NCBI RefSeq assembly: GCF_900166635.1
Contig: NZ_LT800497.1
Location: forward strand, 1,278,303-1,342,302
DNA: 64,000 nucleotides
Source of the DNA: Oceanobacillus timonensis
GTDB lineage: Bacteria > Bacillota > Bacilli > Bacillales > Amphibacillaceae
Direction: 5' to 3'
Made by a program: the position numbers and the translations under genes. This document shows, in pieces, positions 20,429 to 51,416 of this stretch. Every line of letters begins with the position of its first letter. Position 1 is the stretch's first letter. The notes beneath the pieces were generated by a model, which saw nothing but the letters and a program-made list of their open reading frames with translations, ran no database searches and was not told the DNA's origin.

Positions 20429-20790
20429 GGGGACGTTACGGATTCGACAGGGATAGATTGAGCTCAAGTTGCACGTCGAGGTTACGGCTCGTAAAACGTT
20501 ACGCCTAAATATAACTGGCAAAGAAAACAATCAACCTGTTTTAGCAGCTGCGTAAGTAGCCTAAAACGATCCTTCCTGCCATCGCCCGTGTGGCAGATTG
20601 AAGGGTCTCAAATGAAGCGGGCTATACTGCTATCCACGGTCTGAGGATGGGCAGAAGAACTTAATCAGACTAGCTCCATGGAAGCCTGTTGGTAGGCTGA
20701 CATGAGAGCGAATGATAATATACCAACTAAGCGTGTAGATACTTGAGTGGCGATATCTCTGGACGAGGGTTCGACTCCCTCCGTCTCCAT
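20429..20790 (+). ncRNA. ssrA: Transfer-messenger RNA (tmRNA)
   Basis: The RNA rescues stalled ribosomes and tags the nascent chain for proteolysis. The 5' end GGGGACGTTACGGATTCGAC is the conserved tRNA-like start. The 3' end carries the T-loop GGTTCGACTCC and pairs CGTCTCC with the GGGGACG acceptor strand. The tag frame at 20517-20555 reads GKENNQPVLAAA then TAA, ending in the ALAAA/VLAAA-type degron and presumably preceded by the alanine charged on tmRNA. The 3' CCA is not fully encoded; only CCA-like TCCA is seen before TTAG. Boundaries are read from pairing and may be off by a base or two. Confidence 0.97.
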
Positions 20791-20794
20791 TAGA
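20762..20794 (+). other. Probable integration (att) site: 3' end of ssrA
   Basis: The tmRNA 3' end lies 60 bases from the end of a broken tyrosine integrase that points toward it, the standard arrangement for islands integrated in ssrA. I found no second copy of the 3' segment within the window, so the far boundary is unproven. Confidence 0.55.
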
Positions 20795-41888: not shown

Positions 41889-42872
41889 GTGACAAACTCA
41901 AAACGGATGCCAAAGGAATAAAGTCTTGATTATACTCTGAGCCTATTAAGAGAAGGATATATGTATATTCTAAACCGGCGTCATACATTTCATTCGAATG
42001 TATACGAGACACGTCTGTTCGGGAAAAAAGCTATTTGTATGGGTGGAAAAGCAGCCGCAGAAATTTTCTATGATACAGATAAATTTAAGAGAGCAGGTGC
42101 AGCACCTAATCGAATTCAAGAAACGTTATTTGGAAAAGGAGCTGTTCAAGGTTTAGACAATCACCCTCATCACCACCGTAAAAAGTTATTTATGTCAATG
42201 ATGACGCATGAACAACTCAGCTCCCTTGCTGATATCTGCAGCAAACAATGGGAAAAAGCTTTAATTAAATGGGAAAAAAAGAAGAAATTATGCTTTATCA
42301 AGAAGTAAAAACAATTTTGTGCAGGACTGCTTGTCACTGGGTAGGTATTCCTCTAGGAGAAAATGAAGTAATACCATTTACAAATGATCTAGCAGAAATG
42401 TTTGAATCCCCAGCTGATATAGGTCCTCCTCATTGGAAAGGACGATATTCCAGAAACAAAATAGAACAATAAATGAAAAAACGAATAGATAAAGTACGGG
42501 AAGGGGAGTTAGAAATCCCTAAACATACGATACTTTATCGTCTTTCTTGGCACCGCGATATGGAAGGAAACCTTCTTAATCCAGAAACAGTTGCTGTGGA
42601 AGTTATCAATTTATTGAGACCGATTGTTGCCATTGCCATTTATATAAACTTTACATTCCTTTCACTCTACCAGAACCCTAACGAAAGGGAGAAACTCAAA
42701 AAAGAAGATGACATCTATTCAGAGATGTTTGTCCAAGAGGTGCGTCGTTTTTATCCATTTTTCCCAGCTGTTGTTGCTTTGGTGAAAAAAGATTTTACAT
42801 GAAATAATTTTCTTTTTAAAGAGGGGACATTAACTTTATTGGATTTATATGGTACGAATCTGGATCTATGTC
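41889..42872 (+). pseudogene. Cytochrome P450 of the CYP152 fatty-acid peroxygenase type, 5' part
   Basis: From GTG 41889 the frame reads TNSKRMPKE, stop, then [42 protein letters not shown], as in BSbeta/CypC (YbdT)-like peroxygenases that hydroxylate fatty acids with hydrogen peroxide. A frameshift lies near 42285, a TAA after SRNKIEQ at 42470, and a TGA replacing Trp at about 42800 after KKDFT. The sequence then reads GTLTLLDLYGTNLD and is cut by an IS3 element. At least four lesions make it dead. Confidence 0.88.
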
Positions 42873-42935
42873 AAGAAATTGGACAATAGAAATGGTGAAT
42901 TTATTCAAATTCCTACCGCACTCCGCTTGCTTCCC

Positions 42936-42982
42936 TCTGTGTTAAAGGAAGGGGAAGTCCGTCCCTTCCTTTAACACAGAGG
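42936..42982. terminator. Strong palindrome downstream of IS3 orfB
   Basis: The arms CCTCTGTGTTAAAGGAAGGG and CCCTTCCTTTAACACAGAGG form a 20-base near-perfect stem around GAAGTCCGT. It is next to the left end of the IS and could block readthrough from outside into the transposase region or end its transcription. Confidence 0.6.
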
Positions 42983-42996
42983 CTAATTACGCTTTT

Positions 42997-43817
42997 CTAT
43001 GAAGCTATTTTACGTAGATACATTTTTTCATACGCCATTGGTGACATATATCCAATGGTTGAGTGAATTCGCTTGGAATTATAAAATGTCATGATATAAG
43101 AAAAGATACTACGCTTTGCTTCTTCTCGGCTTTGATAATCTTCATGAAAGATTAATTCCTTCTTGATCACGCTATGAAACGACTCGATACATGCATTATT
43201 ATAACAGTTGCCTTTCCGACTCATACTTGTGGTGATATGATGTTTTCTTAAAAGTGCTTGATACTCTTTAGCCGCGTATTGGCTGCCTCTATCGGAATGG
43301 TGAATTAATCCTTTTTGCGGCGTTTGCTGATTAATTGCTCGTCTTAAAGCTGTGAGTGTTAATTCTTTGGTCATTCGATGACTCATTGCCCAACCAATAA
43401 TCCTTCTGGAAAACAAATCCATGATGGTCGCTAAGTACAACCATCCCTCTCTGGTCCAAATGTACGTGATATCGCTTACCCATACTTGTCCTGGTTTATC
43501 TGCCTGGAAATTTTGGTTTAGTAAATTCGGATAGACAGGATGCGAATGTTTGGAGTTCGTTGTCGCCTTATATTTCTTCACTGTTTTCGAACGTAAACCA
43601 TTTTCCTTCATGATACGAGACACTGTTTTTTGAGAAACAGGTACCCCTTCATTGCGTAAAACCTGCGTGATTTTAGGACTGCCATATCTTTTTTTGATGC
43701 GATAAATATGCGTTTGATTTGAGCTGTTAGCTTTTGTTTACGTTTAGATTGATCGCTGACAGGGCGATCTTTCCACTCATAATAGCCACTCTTGGAAACA
43801 CCTAATACTTGGCACAT
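42997..43817 (-). pseudogene. IS3-family transposase OrfB, frameshifted
   Basis: The 5' part (43608-43817) reads MCQVLGVSKSGYYEWKDRP...IFIASKKD and then leaves the frame. The 3' part (42997-43623) resumes with VSRIMKENGLRSKTVKKYKATT and carries the DDE core: VWVSDITYIWTREGW, IHHSDRGSQYA and NACIESFHSVIKKELI. One missing base in the A/T-run near 43700 explains the shift; restoring it gives KKRYGSPKITQVLRNEG. It is therefore inactive unless the shift is a sequencing error in the homopolymer. Confidence 0.85.
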
Positions 43818-43864
43818 CTTCTCTACACGAAATTCGTGGTGGTGTTCTTGAATAAATCCATAGA

Positions 43865-44161
43865 TTACTTCTGTTTTTTTGCGAAGATGCCCATAGCCTT
43901 TTTTAAAATAGCTACCTCCTCTTCCAAATCACGAATCCGTTTATCTTTTTCATACCCAGCTTGATCTTTGGGACTGCGATTACCGCTTCCTACAAAGCTA
44001 TTCTCTTGGTCCTCTTTGTACCTAGCTACCCATTTTTGCAGCGTCTGGGGAACTAAGTCTAATTCTCTTGCCACTTCGGCTGCTTTCCTTCCATCTTCCA
44101 CTACTAATTTTACTGCATATACTTTAAATTCTTTATCATATCTTTTTGCCATTTTAGACAC
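43865..44161 (-). CDS. IS3-family transposase OrfA
   Basis: A 98-residue helix-turn-helix protein (MAKRYDKEFKVYAVKLVVEDGRKAAEVARELDLVPQTLQKWVARYKE) that binds the IS ends. It ends in a leucine-zipper-like helix. Near its stop the run CGCAAAAAAACAG is a typical IS3 slippery site: a -1 shift leads into TEVIYGFIQEHHHEFRVEKMCQVLGV, joining OrfA to OrfB. This is the usual way the fused transposase is made. Confidence 0.88.
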   Translation of the reverse strand: MSKMAKRYDKEFKVYAVKLVVEDGRKAAEVARELDLVPQTLQKWVARYKEDQENSFVGSGNRSPKDQAGYEKDKRIRDLEEEVAILKKAMGIFAKKQK

Positions 44162-44221
44162 TCCTAGAGATTATTATATTTAGTATAAAAATCCCCATTT
44201 GGTATGTCCAATTATTAGACT

Positions 44222-44525
44222 ATCATCAAATTCACACCCTGCCATTTGGGATAATCCGAGTGTATTCGATCCAAATCGATTTGCTGATTGGTCGGGCAGT
44301 CCATTTGAATTCATCCCTCAAGGCGGCGGAGATTATTTCTTAGGACACCGATGTGCTGGTGAACAGGCTACAATGGAAATCATGAAAATAAGTCTTCAAT
44401 ACTTAAATAAAATATCTTATGAAGTTCCTGACAATCAAAACTTAAGCTTTAGTATGGTGAAGATTCCAAGTATCCCGAAAAGTGGAATCATTTTAAGGAA
44501 TATTAATAAAAAGGACAGGTATTAA
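44222..44525 (+). pseudogene. Cytochrome P450 of the CYP152 type, 3' part
   Basis: Past the IS, the frame reads SHPAIWDNPSVFDPNRFADWSGSPFEFIPQGGGDYFLGHRCAGEQATMEI. This contains the haem-binding loop with the cysteine ligand in GHRCAGE. It continues YEVPDNQNLSFSMVKIPSIPKSGIIL to the natural end. It joins the piece ending at 42872 if the IS is removed. Bases 44526-45086 downstream hold no supported gene. Confidence 0.88.
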
Positions 44526-45086
44526 TTAATTTTTCTTTTTTGTCACGTAGCGGACCAAGGGTGCATAAAATATAAAAATTAAAAGTCCCCTAATATCTAA
44601 ATCAAACTAACTTAGAATGTATCTGTTTCAGATATAAAATAATGTAAATAGAAAAGGAATTTATGATATAGGGACTAAGAATTTTTTAGCAATAATTAAT
44701 CAAAAAAAGAAAGTTGATTTTAAGTACAAATTACCTTCTTTTTGGCGCATTGGAAATGTTAACTTGTTAATCTTTTATATTAAAAACCTGTTTAGGAACA
44801 TTATTCCTTTTTGCTAGTTACCTCTCATTCTGTTGGAATAAAACCCAGTTTACAAAATAAACTCCTAACTATGATTTAAATTTAAACTACAAAGAATAAA
44901 TTCCCCTAAAATTGATTTGAAAGTAGCGAGAACAAGTCTGGTACTTATTGAATTTTTTTCCTTAACTGCTGCGATTAGACTATTGATACTCTCATATAAT
45001 TCTTCCTATTCATCTTCATCTGCCAGTAATTGAATTTTCCATTTATAAATATTCTGTAATATGAATATACAACTCCAAAAGTTAGA
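44526..45086. other. AT-rich gap before the ABC-F promoter
   Basis: Several poly-T and poly-A tracts are present, but there is no coding frame with a ribosome-binding site on either strand; the minus-strand frame at 44975-45181 overlaps the promoter and leader and is treated as chance. Confidence 0.45.
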
Positions 45087-45115
45087 TTGACGTAAACAGA
45101 TAAACCCCTTATAAT
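45087..45115 (+). promoter_or_regulatory. Consensus sigma-A promoter of the ABC-F leader
   Basis: TTGACG at 45087-45092 and a perfect TATAAT at 45110-45115, spaced 17 bases. Transcription should begin near 45122, leaving an untranslated leader of about 435 nt before the ABC-F start codon. So long a leader with such a strong promoter implies control after initiation. Confidence 0.85.
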
Positions 45116-45152
45116 AAAGTTAAATATAGAATGGAAAGGAAATTGTGCTAAG

Positions 45153-45185
45153 ATGAGAATTCGATTCCTAGACTTGAACAACTAA
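45153..45185 (+). CDS. Leader peptide 1, MRIRFLDLNN (ErmD-leader-like)
   Basis: A ten-codon ORF begins 12 bases after AAGGA and close to the predicted transcript start. Its sequence resembles the macrolide-sensing end of the ErmD leader (MRLRFPTLNQ, as I recall it): both have the R-x-R (+x+) motif at which macrolide-bound ribosomes stall, then a hydrophobic and an LN ending. A hairpin with CTCTGC and GCAGAG arms lies just downstream at 45204-45233. The gene is inferred from position and motif; there is no experimental support. Confidence 0.6.
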   Translation: MRIRFLDLNN

Positions 45186-45315
45186 TTGGATAACATGTTC
45201 AAGCTCTGCCTGTGCTTTGGCACTCGCAGAGAAATAGGAGTCGTCTGTCTTTTTTTAGTTATTATAATGAAGGTATACATGAGGTATATCTTTTTCCTGA
45301 AAGAAGTATGTAAAA

Positions 45316-45345
45316 GGACAGCAGACGATTTGCTGTTCTTTTTTA
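45316..45345 (+). terminator. Intrinsic terminator inside the leader
   Basis: The arms AGGACAGCA (45316-45324) and TGCTGTTCT (45332-45340) form a nine-base stem with one G-T pair, followed by TTTTT. An upstream segment GTCGTCTGTC (45240-45249) can pair with GACAGCAGACGA and would compete with the terminator, as in transcription attenuation. Confidence 0.75.
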
Positions 45346-45438
45346 ATGATGAAATACAGATATAAAGAAAAGTTTTCTATTTCTTTGTGTGGAAAAGCAG
45401 GGCATTCGTTCTAATAATAAAAATAAGGAGAGATTCCT

Positions 45439-45462
45439 ATGCAGATGCTATTGTTCTTTTGA
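45439..45462 (+). CDS. Leader peptide 2, MQMLLFF
   Basis: A seven-codon ORF preceded by AAGGAGAGA at good spacing ends three bases before the first arm of an alternative hairpin set. A ribosome paused on it would cover arm A and free arm B to pair with arm C. The position is what is expected of a sensing ORF; its actual translation is inferred. Confidence 0.55.
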   Translation: MQMLLFF

Positions 45463-45464
45463 TT

Positions 45465-45544
45465 GATACGGGCTTGTTAGAAGAACACACAAGCTCGTAT
45501 CGATACAATGACAGGCTATCGGTACGAGAAAATAAAAATTCTCG
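45465..45544 (+). promoter_or_regulatory. Mutually exclusive hairpins before the ABC-F ribosome-binding site
   Basis: Arm A GATACGGGCTTGT (45465-45477) pairs with arm B ACAAGCTCGTATC (45489-45501). Arm B extended (CTCGTATCGATA, 45494-45505) pairs instead with arm C TATCGGTACGAG (45517-45528). A third small stem CGAGAA/TTCTCG (45525-45544) shares bases with C and touches the GGAGG at 45544-45548. This is a typical three-arm attenuator architecture in which A:B, B:C and C:SD-flanking pairings compete. Confidence 0.72.
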
Positions 45545-45556
45545 GAGGTAGCAAAA

Positions 45557-47008
45557 ATGCAAAACATTCAATTTGAAATAAAAGATGTCGACTTAACGTA
45601 TTTAGATAAAGATATTTTTTCCATTCACCGGTTAGCTGTTCATTTTATGGATCGGATTGGTATCGTTGGACCGAATGGGTCAGGAAAAACAAGCCTGATC
45701 CGTTTGCTTGCAGGGGAATTAGAACCGTCAAAAGGGGAGATTCACCGTCATGCGAGCTTTGCCTATTTAAAACAAATGGAAGTGCCTGAGGATGCGGAAG
45801 TCGATCCAAAGGTTTTAGGCAAACTGCAAGTCCCCGATTTGGAAGAGGGAATAAGCGGCGGCGAGCAGACCAAAATAAAAATCGCGCAGCTCTTGGCGAA
45901 TTATCAGGAAGCATTATTGATTGATGAACCAACCACGCATCTTGATCAACAGGGAATCCGTTATTTACGGAGAGAATTGGAAAATTATTATGGAACACTA
46001 ATTTTGATCAGCCATGATCGCAAACTTTTAGATCAACTTGTCACAACGATTTGGGAAATTCGTGATGGGGAAATCCACATTTATTCTGGTAACTATACGG
46101 ATTATGAAGAACAGAAAGCATTGGAAGAAAGTCAACAGCAGGAAGCACATGAGCAATATCTGAAGGAAAAATCCCGTTTAGAAGCTGCAGCACAGGATAA
46201 AATGCAAAAGGCAGCGAAAATGACAAAAGGTGCGAAAGCAAATGCGCGAAAAAAAGAAGGCGCAGATCGGCGGCTCGCTACAAAGCCTAAAGATGTTTCG
46301 CAAAAAGGGATGCAAAAAAGTGCCAAAGCAATAGAAAGACGGATGGAGCAGTTAGAAAAAGTAGATGCTGTTCAGCATGAACGTCCTATTCAATTTCACC
46401 GGTCCAAGGCACTAGAGTTGCATCATTCCTTTCCTGTAATGGGGAATCAGCTGACGTTAAAGGCTGGTGAGAAGCTGCTTTTAGAAGCTGCCCGTTTTCA
46501 GTTTCCTTTAGGTAAAAAAATCGCAATTACAGGAGCCAATGGTTCTGGAAAAAGTACCTTACTTCAGGCGATTTACAAGCGGAAGGAAGGATTAGAGATT
46601 TCACCAAAAGTGGAATTTGGTTTCTTTGAGCAGCTTGCTTATCAGGAAAAGTCAGATGAAACTGTATTGGCCAGCTTAAGAAAAACAACGGATTATGAGG
46701 AAGGCTTTTTACGCAGTGTGCTCCATTCTATGTATTTCAGGGGAAATGATATTTATAAAAAACTGCGTTATTTAAGCGGTGGTGAGGCTATCCGATTGCA
46801 ACTGTGCAGATTATTTCTTGGTTCCTATCACATCTTGTTACTAGATGAACCGACGAACTTTTTGGATATCCAGACAACGAAAGCATTAGAATCCTTTTTT
46901 AAAGGGTATCCAGGTACGATTATTTTTGTTTCCCACGATGCTGCTTTTATCGAAAATGTGGCAGACCATGTATATGAAATGAAAAATAACCAAATCATCG
47001 AAAAGTAA
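45557..47008 (+). CDS. ABC-F subfamily ATPase, probable ribosome-protection antibiotic resistance protein
   Basis: A 483-residue soluble protein with two ABC cassettes and no membrane domain. Cassette 1 has IVGPNGSGKTSLIRL, ISGGEQTKIKI and ALLIDEPTTHLD; cassette 2 has ITGANGSGKSTLLQA, LSGGEAIRLQL and ILLLDEPTNFLD. The linker between them (residues about 185-270) is long, charged and helical, as in Vga/Vml/Msr-type proteins that displace antibiotics from the ribosome. Housekeeping ABC-F proteins (EttA, Uup) are usually longer. The leader with stalling-type peptide supports drug-inducible expression. Substrate drugs (macrolide, lincosamide, pleuromutilin, streptogramin) cannot be decided. Confidence 0.85.
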   Translation: MQNIQFEIKDVDLTYLDKDIFSIHRLAVHFMDRIGIVGPNGSGKTSLIRLLAGELEPSKGEIHRHASFAYLKQMEVPEDAEVDPKVLGKLQVPDLEEGISGGEQTKIKIAQLLANYQEALLIDEPTTHLDQQGIRYLRRELENYYGTLILISHDRKLLDQLVTTIWEIRDGEIHIYSGNYTDYEEQKALEESQQQEAHEQYLKEKSRLEAAAQDKMQKAAKMTKGAKANARKKEGADRRLATKPKDVSQKGMQKSAKAIERRMEQLEKVDAVQHERPIQFHRSKALELHHSFPVMGNQLTLKAGEKLLLEAARFQFPLGKKIAITGANGSGKSTLLQAIYKRKEGLEISPKVEFGFFEQLAYQEKSDETVLASLRKTTDYEEGFLRSVLHSMYFRGNDIYKKLRYLSGGEAIRLQLCRLFLGSYHILLLDEPTNFLDIQTTKALESFFKGYPGTIIFVSHDAAFIENVADHVYEMKNNQIIEK

Positions 47009-47919: not shown

Positions 47920-49107
47920 ATGAAAAAACAAAATATGACGCTGTCTATCTTACTGATGAATTTGTTTATTGCATTTTTAGGTATTGGATTAGTTATTCCA
48001 GTTTTACCTACGATTATGAATGAGTTGAATTTGTCTGGATCTGTTGTAGGTTATTTGGTAGCAGCTTTTGCCGTTGCGCAGCTTATTGTTTCACCACTTT
48101 CCGGCAGATGGGTTGATGCGTTTGGACGTAAACGCATGATTGTCACCGGACTTTTGATTTTTAGTTTTAGTGAGTTTCTATTTGGTATCGGAAAGACCGT
48201 AGAAATTTTATTTATCTCACGAATTTTAGGTGGAGTAAGTGCTGCTTTTATTATGCCTGCAGTAACTGCATTTATTGCTGATATAACAACACTTGAGACC
48301 AGACCGAAAGCATTAGGTTATATGTCTGCAGCGATTAACACCGGATTTATTATCGGTCCGGGTGTTGGTGGATTACTGGCAGAAGTGGGACCGAGAATCC
48401 CGTTTTTTGCAGCGGCAGGTTTGGCGCTATTTACAGCTATCTTATCGACAATAACACTGCGTGAACCAGAAAGAAACTATGAGGAACAAGGAGATGCAGA
48501 AGCTCCAAAACCCGGCTTAGGAAGAATCTTTGTTCCTGTATACTTTATCGCGTTTATTGTTATATTTATTACCGCATTTGGTTTATCTTCCTTTGAATCA
48601 TTATTTTCTTTATTTGTGGATCATAAATTTGGATTCGCACCAAAGGATATTGCAATTATTATCACCGGCGGAGCGATTGTTGGTACGATTGCGCAAATTG
48701 CCTTGTTCGGCAAATTGGCAGACAAATGGGGAGAAATTCGTTTGATTCGTTATTGCCTGATTTTCTCTGCCATGCTTGTTATGGCGATGACGGTTGTGGA
48801 AAGTTATGCGATGATTTTATTCGTAACGATTGTTGTTTTTATTGGTTTCGATTTAATCCGGCCTGCTGTTACTTCTTATTTATCGAAAGCAGCAGGAAAT
48901 GAACAAGGTTTTGTAGGTGGAATGAACTCAATGTTTACCAGTATCGGAAATGTTTTTGGACCAATCATCGGCGGGATTTTATTTGATATAAATTTAAATT
49001 ATCCGTACTATTTTGCAGCAATGGTACTCATGGCAGGAATTGCTGTGGCAATGGTTTGGAAAAGTCCCAAAACAGGGGCGGAGCAAGCTGTTGAAGAAAT
49101 GAAATAA
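47920..49107 (+). CDS. MFS drug efflux transporter, Bmr/NorA-like
   Basis: A 395-residue proton-driven exporter with 12 hydrophobic segments. Motif A reads GRWVDAFGRKRMIV between TM2 and TM3, and the exporter-specific motif C reads NTGFIIGPGVGGLLAE in TM5. This places it in the DHA1 group with Bmr, Blt and NorA. Regulation may involve the three-codon leader and an ATCTGA/TCAGAT inverted repeat at about 47836-47872 that could be an operator. The downstream terminator is split by an IS66 element. Confidence 0.87.
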   Translation: MKKQNMTLSILLMNLFIAFLGIGLVIPVLPTIMNELNLSGSVVGYLVAAFAVAQLIVSPLSGRWVDAFGRKRMIVTGLLIFSFSEFLFGIGKTVEILFISRILGGVSAAFIMPAVTAFIADITTLETRPKALGYMSAAINTGFIIGPGVGGLLAEVGPRIPFFAAAGLALFTAILSTITLREPERNYEEQGDAEAPKPGLGRIFVPVYFIAFIVIFITAFGLSSFESLFSLFVDHKFGFAPKDIAIIITGGAIVGTIAQIALFGKLADKWGEIRLIRYCLIFSAMLVMAMTVVESYAMILFVTIVVFIGFDLIRPAVTSYLSKAAGNEQGFVGGMNSMFTSIGNVFGPIIGGILFDINLNYPYYFAAMVLMAGIAVAMVWKSPKTGAEQAVEEMK

Positions 49108-49245: not shown

Positions 49246-49416
49246 ATGAAGGAAAACCCGATTGTTCCCGTAACGATCCCAGCACCATCTTCCTCTACGC
49301 CTGTAAATCCAGTAGCGGAAGTTTCTTGTCATTCTCTACAGCTAACAATCTTTGAAGGTTGTCAGGAATCTTTGGCAGTAGCCTTGATAAAGGAGGTGTG
49401 CCGTCATGCTCGTTGA
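49246..49416 (+). CDS. Short TnpA-position ORF of IS66
   Basis: A 56-residue ORF (MKENPIVPVTIPAPSSSTPV, then SLQLTIFEGCQESLAVALIKEV) starts after GGAGGTAG and overlaps tnpB by 11 bases. The ending resembles the C-terminus of IS66 TnpA accessory proteins, but the N-terminal helix-turn-helix seen in usual TnpA (about 110 residues) is missing. The element may carry a natural internal deletion. Confidence 0.6.
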   Translation: MKENPIVPVTIPAPSSSTPVNPVAEVSCHSLQLTIFEGCQESLAVALIKEVCRHAR

Positions 49417-49762
49417 CTTCTCCCAGATGAAAAATTGTTATTTAGTCTGTGGCTATACAGATCTTCGCAAAGGCATTGATGGTCTGGCTTCCGTAATCAC
49501 CAGTCAATTTCAATTAGATATTTTAGATGAATCTGTTTTCTTATTCTGCGGGAGAAGAACGGATCGATTTAAAGCTCTCTGGTTTGATGGAGAAGGTTTT
49601 TATTTGCTTTATAAGCGATACGATCAGGGAAAGTTAACTTGGCCGCGTTCGCAAACCGACGTTGAAAAACTGACACCAAAACAAATCGAGTGGCTGTTTG
49701 ACGGCTTTTCCATCTATCAAAAACAAAAAATTCAACCTGCCAAATTAGGTGTCCTCACTTAA
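49406..49762 (+). CDS. IS66 Orf2 (TnpB) accessory protein
   Basis: A 118-residue protein with the TnpB signature YLVCGYTDLRKGIDGLASVI near the start and LFCGRRTDRFKALWFDGEGFYLLYKRYDQGKLTWPR in the centre. It is required for IS66 transposition in known elements. AAAGGAGGTG precedes the ATG. Confidence 0.92.
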   Translation: MLVDFSQMKNCYLVCGYTDLRKGIDGLASVITSQFQLDILDESVFLFCGRRTDRFKALWFDGEGFYLLYKRYDQGKLTWPRSQTDVEKLTPKQIEWLFDGFSIYQKQKIQPAKLGVLT

Positions 49763-49859
49763 TCATGGGGGAGAGAAATTGTTTTTTAAATTTTTTCTTC
49801 CCTTTTTGATAAAGTGTGGTACGATAAAAGAAATTATTTGGACACAGGGGGTGAATACG

Positions 49860-51416
49860 TTGACAGAATTGGAAAAGAAGCTGATGAAACAAATCGAACA
49901 TTTGACAATTCAAAATGAAAAACAAGCAAAACAAATTGAACAGCTGATTAACCAGCTGACCAATATGAATCGTCGACTATTTGGAACATCATCCGAAAAG
50001 AATTCTCAAGGTCAACTCTCCTTCTTCGAAGAAGACAATAATCCCCCTTTTAGCGAGGCAGAGCAACCTGCAGACAAAGCCGTTGAAATAGAGACCATCT
50101 CTTATCAGCGAAAAAAATATCAAGGGCAGCGGGCCGATATCACAAGAGACTTGCCTATCGTGGTAGAAGAACACACTCTTCCGTCCGATAGCCAGGTCTG
50201 TTCGTGCTGTGCCAGCCCATTAAAACATCTTGGGAAGCGAGAAGCTCGAACGGAGTTAGAGTTTATCCCAGCTCATTTAGTAAAACATGTACATTATGAA
50301 CATGCTTATGAATGCTTAGCCTGTAAGAAAACCGGTCAGAATCACATTCTCCGACAAAAAGCACCGGAACCAGCCTTAGCTAAAAGTTTAGCTGGACCGA
50401 GCGTGTTAGCCTATAATCTCTATCAAAAGCTGGAGATGAGTATTCCTTATCATCGTCAGGAAAAAGAATGGGCAAGATATGGGTTGAAGGTTTCCCGGAG
50501 AACGTTGGCAAACTGGGCGATTCGAAGTTCCGAAGAATGGCTGGAGCCATTGTACCAACAAATGAGAGAAAAATTACTTCTAGAACCTGTGCTCTCCGCT
50601 GATGAAACGACCTATCAAATTTTACGCCGGGCAGACGAAAAGTCAGCTACAGCCGATGCGAGGATATGGTTATTTCGAACAGCGGAAGCTGCCAAACATC
50701 CCATTATTCTCTACCATTCTTCCGAGACACGCCGGTTTGAAGTAGCAGAAACCTTTCTCAAAGGATTTCAAGGACTTCTTCATTGTGATGGATATTCCGT
50801 CTATCAAAAATTAGAAGATGTGCAACTTCAAACGTGCTGGGCGCATGTTCGGAGAAAGTTTTTAGAGACCAATGATTCAAATGGACAAGGCGCCGTCGGC
50901 GTCCATTACTGTGACCAGCTTTTCAAGCTGGAAAGGCAATGGAAAGATTTATCTCCAGAGGAACGCCTGCAGCAACGCCAGCTGGAAAGCAAGCCGTTAC
51001 TGAAGGAGTTTTGGGGATGGCTGGACGCTCTCGTTACAATGAAAGGTCCTTTACAAAAAGCTGTGGATTATACACAAAAGTTAAGGGATTCCCTTCAACG
51101 CTTTTTAACAGACGGACGCCTTTTCATTAGTAATAATCTCGCAGAACGTTCCATTCGGCCTGTCACCGTCGGACGTAAAAACTGGTATTTTTCAACCAGC
51201 GTAGCTGGAGCTCATGCGAATACCATTGGATACAGTGTTATCCAAACAGCTAAAGAAAATGGAATTGATCCGTTTGAATACTTAACCGTTTTATTTAAGG
51301 AACTTCCCCAGCTTAATATTTTTCAAGACTCGGAACAATGGGAAAACTATTTTCCATGGAGTCCTTATATCCAAGCCAAGGTGAAGCCACTTTCAAAACA
51401 TATAAAACGAGCATAA
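49860..51416 (+). CDS. IS66 transposase (TnpC)
   Basis: A 518-residue DDE transposase. An N-terminal coiled coil (IEHLTIQNEKQAKQIEQLIN) precedes the zinc-binding CSCCASPL...CLACKKTG part. The catalytic domain shows LSADETTYQIL, HCDGYSVYQKLEDVQLQTCWAHVRRKF and FISNNLAERSIRPVTVGRKNW. TTG 49860 follows AGGGGGTG; the longer frame back to 49749 has no site. Frame intact, so the element is probably active. Confidence 0.93.
   Translation: MTELEKKLMKQIEHLTIQNEKQAKQIEQLINQLTNMNRRLFGTSSEKNSQGQLSFFEEDNNPPFSEAEQPADKAVEIETISYQRKKYQGQRADITRDLPIVVEEHTLPSDSQVCSCCASPLKHLGKREARTELEFIPAHLVKHVHYEHAYECLACKKTGQNHILRQKAPEPALAKSLAGPSVLAYNLYQKLEMSIPYHRQEKEWARYGLKVSRRTLANWAIRSSEEWLEPLYQQMREKLLLEPVLSADETTYQILRRADEKSATADARIWLFRTAEAAKHPIILYHSSETRRFEVAETFLKGFQGLLHCDGYSVYQKLEDVQLQTCWAHVRRKFLETNDSNGQGAVGVHYCDQLFKLERQWKDLSPEERLQQRQLESKPLLKEFWGWLDALVTMKGPLQKAVDYTQKLRDSLQRFLTDGRLFISNNLAERSIRPVTVGRKNWYFSTSVAGAHANTIGYSVIQTAKENGIDPFEYLTVLFKELPQLNIFQDSEQWENYFPWSPYIQAKVKPLSKHIKRA

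Follow-up and report, generated by a model that had tools for sequence, protein, structure and literature searches.

An Msr-type ABC-F gene of Oceanobacillus timonensis is preceded by a leader with two upstream open reading frames, probably two attenuator gates in series

The stretch of DNA analysed here (the window) comprises 64,000 nucleotides (nt) of the genome of Oceanobacillus timonensis, a member of the Amphibacillaceae (contig NZ_LT800497.1, positions 1,278,303 to 1,342,302), and holds a gene for an Msr-like ABC-F protein whose leader, 45087-45557, contains two short upstream open reading frames (uORF1 and uORF2), each lying in an RNA module of its own. We think it likely that this leader is a composite attenuator, in which a gate on transcription and a gate on translation stand in series before the one gene. 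The parts of the leader, their conservation, their pairings and the linkage of the two modules emerge from the sequence and its comparison with relatives, and from these we infer translation of the uORFs, ribosome stalling, the identity of the drug, termination and induction.

The protein is Msr-like, Msr being by far its best family at a score slightly under the cut-off (674.8 bits against NCBIfam NF000168, whose cut-off is 680), and scores 511.4 bits against the general ABC-F ribosomal protection model NF000355, above the cut-off of 380. Among solved structures, the protein comes closest to chain 5zlu_EE (E 2.5e-119), which we take to be MsrE. The nearest orthologues of the gene are at six Oceanobacillus loci, 88-90% identical, and the plasmid relatives of the protein are all less than 60% identical (top 58.4%). 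For the Msr family, the cognate drugs are more likely to be macrolides and streptogramin B than pleuromutilins, and since the gene is Msr-like, the same holds here. Kinship to Msr, together with published cases of R-x-R and MsrDL leader peptides, points by analogy to macrolides as the acting drugs.

As a whole, the leader folds 8 standard deviations (sd) lower than its own dinucleotide shuffles, none of 100 of which folds as low. A promoter scan gave 4 promoter-like sites with at least 9 consensus letters, against 3.6 in shuffles, so only the quality and the conservation of the leader promoter carry weight. When the window leader is aligned with those of its six Oceanobacillus orthologues (the close group, seven leaders), both uORFs, the regions of both terminators (T1 and T2) and the pairing arms are seen to be retained; the T2 region, the block 45375-45385 and the final switch with its arms rank among the best-kept parts. 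The features are collected in Table 1. An earlier note on this DNA had described a consensus promoter, the open reading frames (ORFs) MRIRFLDLNN and MQMLLFF, hairpins, one intrinsic terminator and hairpins at the ribosome-binding site; all lie where it placed them, and the terminators are now two, T1, with uORF1 in its 5′ arm, and T2, both predicted. Conservation of the mini-ORFs and of pairing, which the note had named beforehand as a test, is found in related genomes. The kinship it saw between the first peptide and ErmD-like stalling peptides also holds: counterparts in distant relatives read MTHAMRLRFPALNQ and similar, and the ErmD and ErmK leader peptides given in passages of PMC4335068 and PMC10314930 read MTHSMRLRFPTLNQ. 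We rejected the possibility that the mini-ORFs are chance ORFs on the grounds of their conservation in relatives and of independent covariance-model matches. Rfam returned nothing near the gathering score in 45000-45700 and no match at E up to 1 in four relatives.

Table 1. Features of the two-module leader and its gene, in window coordinates; SD, Shine-Dalgarno sequence
Feature	Position	Strand	Basis
Promoter TTGACG-17-TATAAT	45087..45115	+	11/12 consensus letters; both hexamers invariant in 7/7 aligned leaders
Terminator T1/anti-antiterminator: stem 45150-45170/45235-45251, two inner hairpins, U5	45150..45256	+	predicted by fold
uORF1 MRIRFLDLNN, ErmD-like, R-x-R at codons 2-4	45153..45185 (ATG 45153, TAA 45185)	+	comparison with relatives
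Inner hairpin a (CTTGAACA/TGTTCAAG)	45173..45203	+	fold
Inner hairpin b (CTCTGC/GCAGAG), also upstream strand of the predicted outer antiterminator	45204..45231	+	fold
Predicted inner antiterminator strand GTCGTCTGTC, partner inside 45317-45328 (T2 5′ arm)	45240..45250	+	masked fold
Hairpin between T1 and T2, possibly a pause hairpin	45270..45294	+	fold, alignment (conserved columns)
Intrinsic terminator T2, predicted: stem 45312-45323/45331-45342 (AAAAGGACAGCA/TGCTGTTCTTTT) and U-tract	45312..45345	+	fold, alignment
Predicted outer antiterminator, downstream strand (CTATTTCTTTG ... GCAG), partner 45206-45237	45377..45400	+	near-invariant block 45375-45385
Putative translation attenuator module, match to model R1	45417..45559	+	80.4 bits, E 7e-14
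uORF2 MQMLLFF, SD AAGGAG	45439..45462 (ATG 45439, TGA 45462)	+	peptide identical in 7/7 of the close group
Stem 1:2 (GATACGGGCTTGT/ACAAGCTCGTATC), 45465-45477/45489-45501	45465..45501	+	fold, alignment
Alternative stem 2:3 (CTCGTATCGATA/TATCGGTACGAG)	45494..45528	+	fold
Stem 3:4 with main SD GGAGG (45544-45548)	45515..45552	+	fold, alignment
ABC-F gene, Msr-like, 483 amino acids	45557..47008	+	family-model scores, best solved relative

The first module has the features of an ErmD/ErmK-type attenuator: an R-x-R peptide, RNA homology to Erm leaders, and terminators with a competing antiterminator. In the close group, five members have MRFRFLDLNN in place of the window's peptide, RxRF is kept in 7/7 and the stop codon in 6/7; the remaining locus (L013) has lost one base and reads through to 27 codons with an altered end. 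The 5′ arm of T1 is the R-x-R-F-L part of uORF1. Attenuation through such peptides is described for ErmK and MefEL, and two adjacent terminators for the erm(K) leader, in passages of PMC4335068. Like the ErmK/ErmD leader, the window thus has an R-x-R peptide of like kind inside RNA that can form more than one terminator, and at 23 of the 77 first-gene calls discussed below an Erm gene follows a homologous module; unlike it, the window module is followed by a second uORF module and an ABC-F gene. At this first gate, polymerase would leave the promoter and a ribosome would translate uORF1. Without drug, the ribosome would complete uORF1, the 5′ arm would pair with 45235-45251, T1 and T2 would form and most transcripts would end early. 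Were a macrolide-type drug present, the ribosome would halt at R-x-R and cover the 5′ arm, blocking T1, and the freed 3′ strand, 45206-45250, could pair with 45317-45328 and 45377-45400 and compete with T2, so that transcription would continue.

Simulated stalling on uORF1 is consistent with this gate. These simulations are equilibrium folds that ignore co-transcriptional kinetics, with the RNA hidden to 15 nt past the first base of the R-x-R P-site codon. Over 40 loci, the expected pairs of the last terminator fell from a mean of 8.9 to 3.9, by more than one pair in 27. In the window, for a transcript ending near 45340, T2 dropped from 9.6 pairs to 0.6, and the outer antiterminator rose from 2.1 to 25.5 pairs. 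With graded masks the means were 9.7 unmasked, 6.1 with masks up to just before R-x-R, 2.8 stalled and 9.5 further on, for 28 of the 40 loci; the 12 omitted include several non-responders, so these means flatter the model and the 40-locus count is fairer. The upstream control masks already bring a fall to 6.1, so the R-x-R footprint does not account for the whole effect.

At 49 loci, picked before any result, we examined the long-range duplex that the 3′ part of module 1 can form with a strand downstream of T2. The two strands covary: those from the same locus pair at -34.0 kcal/mol, against -31.0 (sd 0.49) when the downstream strands are swapped among loci, and none of 5000 swaps was as low; a control segment showed no effect (3553/5000). 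At one locus (L027), 16 nt of the duplex pair perfectly. In many distant loci the downstream strand doubles as the 5′ arm of a third terminator, which stands immediately ahead of uORF2; this argues that the duplex acts as an antiterminator. The window group is without this third terminator, yet it keeps the duplex, and pairing nested within the duplex occupies the 5′ arm of T2.

Local pairing is likewise well kept in both modules. In module 1, 95.9% of pair cells are standard among 16 relatives, against 26-48% when the strands are slid; compensatory changes occur at 4/23 pairs, a count equalled by 6/500 shuffles. The corresponding values for module 2, counted on alignment A3 without the window group, are 96.6% against 22-48%, with compensatory changes at 3/21 pairs, equalled by 20/500 shuffles. 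In alignment A2 the inner 3:4 stem of the window group stands one column out of register relative to most others.

The second module resembles a translation attenuator of the ErmC style whose peptide is hydrophobic and MsrDL-like. Attenuators of the ErmC type have four arms, with stems 1:2 and 3:4 set against 2:3 and the SD in arm 4. The module has this architecture, its 1:2/3:4 and 2:3 states being mutually exclusive, and the likeness is one of architecture; the window peptide differs in being seven codons long, hydrophobic and ending at arm 1. The general mechanism of ErmC-type translation attenuation is set out in passages of PMC5418344. The MsrDL-like trait is the presence of a very short hydrophobic peptide, MQMLLFF, just upstream of an Msr-like gene. 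Its relatives elsewhere read MQFLLFF, MQILLFF, MYMLLFF and MHMLLFF; codons 4-7 vary only synonymously (13 variants, drawn from most loci), and L013 differs from the window by one synonymous change. In most distant loci the stop codon touches arm 1, so a ribosome stalled at the end of uORF2 would sit on arm 1. At this second gate, stem 3:4 in full-length RNA would conceal the ribosome-binding site of the gene; with drug, a ribosome halted near the end of MQMLLFF would cover arm 1, since this arm adjoins the stop codon or overlaps it; arm 2 would be left to pair with arm 3, exposing the ribosome-binding site, which lies in arm 4. Masking the RNA that a ribosome on the final uORF2 codon would cover raised the 2:3 pairs formed before arm 4 from a mean of 1.9 to 8.8, with a gain of more than 3 in 24/27 loci and from 0 to 9 in the window. 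The letters TTCTTT at 45454-45459, inside uORF2, fit the NusG pause motif TTNTTT, which passages of PMC9226507 and PMC10314930 name in the vmlR and msrDL leaders. This motif could couple polymerase and ribosome; two Phe codons yield such letters regardless.

To follow the two modules through other genomes we used two covariance models, R1 for the second module (14 sequences) and R2 for the first (16 sequences, with no Erm leader among them), the seven close sequences being left out of both. R2 matches the window at 45122-45263 (57.3 bits, E 9e-10). In the whole genome of the window each model has one convincing match, at the window, the next best being at E 2.7 for R1 and 1.26 for R2. This genome has a second ABC-F gene (L002, G000:C3:3696314-3697666; 39% identity, open frame of 548 amino acids), at whose locus neither model has a match. 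Counting the own genome each time, R1 occurs in 36 and R2 in 76 of 159 genomes of the family, in 19 and 129 of 397 in the order sample, and in 2 and 8 of 348 in the phylum sample; searches over more than 40 genomes used stricter filters, which may miss weak copies.

The two modules are linked. In the family, an R2 match lies no more than 1.5 kb upstream of 37/38 R1 matches, on the same strand; 29 of the 37 pairs are 82-362 nt apart, and the other 8 are 909-1482 nt apart with a gene between. By msr search and BLASTP clusters, 28 of the 29 adjacent pairs precede msr genes, and one (G021) precedes mef. Outside the family, a genome of another class (G869) has both modules with a gap of 113 nt. Msr genes 53-63% identical have leaders with both elements, for example MTHAMRLRFPALNQ followed by MQFLLFF (L029, L032), MRLRFPTLNQ by MQILLFF (L039) and MTHSMRLRFPALNQ by MCMLLFY (L035); at L051 and L052, where mef and msr occur together, mef is preceded by an MTHSMRLR-type uORF and followed, ahead of msr, by MQFLLFF, and other loci, such as L040, L043, L048, L049 and L053, have the first element only. 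On an unrooted tree of 34 Msr proteins, the 20 tandem rows require 5 changes against 11.2 with shuffled labels. Loci with mef between the modules require 3 changes on the same tree, forced by starred branches, so this layout was gained or lost more than once among the tandem relatives. Weaker copies of the second module before mef (L021/L034, G021:C11:144379-146113 and G026:C17:182899-184231; 53 and 51 bits) indicate that the module is not bound to msr alone.

Several results weigh against two gates in series. The SD of uORF1 in the window is weak (AAGGA, about 12 nt before the ATG), as it is across the window group. Under the uORF1 stall mask, 13/40 loci show no drop of more than one pair in the last terminator, and in one it rises; in the window itself, with the transcript end at 45345, the probability of T2 falls only from about 1.0 to 0.69, and in L013 of the close group T2 stays put (9.6 to 9.4 pairs). 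When the mask is extended to take in hairpin a, the last terminator recovers in most of the 28 loci of the graded series, and in the window only to 3.0. At the second gate, the uORF2 stall mask leaves the main SD more open in 10/28 loci and less open in 2. Opening is absent in the window (0.35 to 0.28), where 2:3 forms and the SD pairs weakly with the unmasked rest of arm 1. One R1 match of the family (G075) has no R2 within about 3 kb, and in the order sample R2 lies upstream of 14/20 R1 matches, with no R2 within about 3 kb of the other 6. For the two successive checkpoints that the earlier note proposed, comparison supports the design, the first half appearing to be built as a transcription gate and the second as a translation gate, and the opening of the window SD was not seen in the fold.

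In a rival reading, the first gate alone senses drug and uORF2 with its hairpins sets a fixed low rate of translation or serves as a translational coupler. We consider this unlikely. The weak opening of the SD under a simulated uORF2 stall, and its absence in the window, would fit such an arrangement, and among open-licence papers we found none testing a peptide of the uORF2 sequence; but uORF2 is conserved at the level of its codons, three mutually exclusive stems are retained over deep divergence, and, according to passages of PMC10314930, ribosomes exposed to erythromycin stall on a short hydrophobic peptide that occupies the corresponding position ahead of msrD.

Less probable still is a single sensor acting at two levels, with a stall on uORF1 both stopping termination and freeing the main ribosome-binding site and uORF2 as an accessory. 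Passages of PMC9226507 and PMC6851288 describe such control for vmlR and tlrB (yxjB) of Bacillus subtilis. The vmlR leader also precedes an ABC-F gene and combines leader termination with a hairpin covering the SD, but it has one three-codon uORF (MIN) and one switch where the window has two uORFs and two modules; the tlrB leader shares with the window an R-x-R peptide, a terminator and an SD-sequestering hairpin, but uses a single uORF for both levels and precedes another gene. In the window, the strand of the outer antiterminator ends near the SD of uORF2, a point in favour of this reading. Against this, a fold of the whole leader with only uORF1 hidden keeps stems 1:2 and 3:4 intact over the main SD, and the gene between the modules in 8 family loci means that refolding from uORF1 cannot easily reach the second module. 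A second gate working as a transcription attenuator, as passages of PMC10314930 describe for MsrDL, which acts before msrD through an intrinsic terminator, is the least probable of all and was rejected, since no hairpin with a U-tract lies between uORF2 and the msr-like gene and the module is therefore not classed as MsrDL-type: no U-tract follows stems 1:2 or 3:4 in the window or in 23 aligned modules, a terminator search between module 1 and the ABC-F gene of the window found T2 alone, and the SD lies within stem 3:4.

Two gates in series remain our preferred reading of the window leader, and the first module occurs well beyond it. Of 79 loci with R2 alone, two gave no ORF and were left out; the first gene at the remaining 77 is erm at 23, msr at 16, hflX at 13, mph at 8, lmrB-like efflux at 7, an rlmA-type methyltransferase at 6, mef at 1 and other at 3, where the 16 called msr include three short or distant, doubtful ORFs (L141, L160, L174) and each cluster was given its class from one or two representatives that were scanned. 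These are ribosome-drug resistance classes, as expected of a common drug sensor. Examples of the R2 module before such genes, in the family, order and phylum samples, include L124, L127, L161, L162 and L176; the genes often form operons, such as hflX-mph and rlmA-msr. A wider proposal, which we hold as tentative and somewhat more doubtful than not, is that a modular two-sensor gate is widespread, with an R-x-R stall acting at transcription and a hydrophobic-peptide stall at translation, each by a different drug-bound ribosome, and with the resistance protein produced only if both stalls occur; that mef-msr operons, perhaps including the clinical mefA/msrD, may have arisen by insertion of a pump gene between the gates; and that each module would represent an RNA family not yet registered, the first of them serving as a common element of a macrolide-sensing regulon for erm, msr, mef, mph, hflX, rlmA-type and lmrB-like genes.

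Among the closest published parallels is the mefA/msrD operon. According to passages of PMC10314930, msrD is under two erythromycin-sensing leader peptides, MefAL (MTASMRLR) before mefA and MsrDL (MYLIFM) before msrD, both of which act by transcription attenuation. There, as in the window, msr is preceded by an R-x-R peptide and then by a short hydrophobic one, but mefA lies between the peptides, whereas the window leader is contiguous, has no mef, and has a second part that appears built as a translation attenuator. Since two leader peptides over msrD are published, the two-peptide principle is known. What seems new is the contiguous fusion of transcription and then translation control before one gene, and its breadth. 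We did not find a contiguous two-uORF leader, MQFLLFF or MQMLLFF, or the common RNA family in open-licence papers, and the older subscription literature on ermD, ermK and msr may hold more; excerpts of PMC8116656 and PMC11264731 held nothing on a two-module layout. The suggestion in the earlier note that the two-ORF layout may be undescribed therefore narrows to the contiguous layout, as two-level control of an ABC-F gene is known for vmlR with one uORF (passages of PMC9226507) and two-peptide control for msrD.

Upstream of the gene, ORFs in 41961-44525 resemble by motif what we take to be pieces of a cytochrome P450 gene, and they are split by an IS3-like transposase pair on the minus strand (42997-44161). 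Downstream is an MFS efflux gene (47920-49107), Tet(A)/(B)/(C)-like at 165 bits (cut-off 475) and barely over the cut-off of TIGR00880, followed at 49406-51416 by what are, by resemblance, presumably IS66-like transposition genes. The sole Rfam match at the gathering score in the window is a tmRNA gene (20429-20792).

Two different arrest peptides in series on one gene would make a compact natural system for measuring double sensing, and the value of such sensing, in tight shut-off, drug discrimination or noise, could be measured in it. With R1 and R2, scattered cases (ErmK, MefAL and MsrDL) become RNA families that can be aligned, and because R2 stands before several unrelated resistance classes, annotation of inducible resistance could use the leader as well as the gene. 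If the two-sensor gate is true, these bacteria would sense drugs twice, through two tunnel chemistries.

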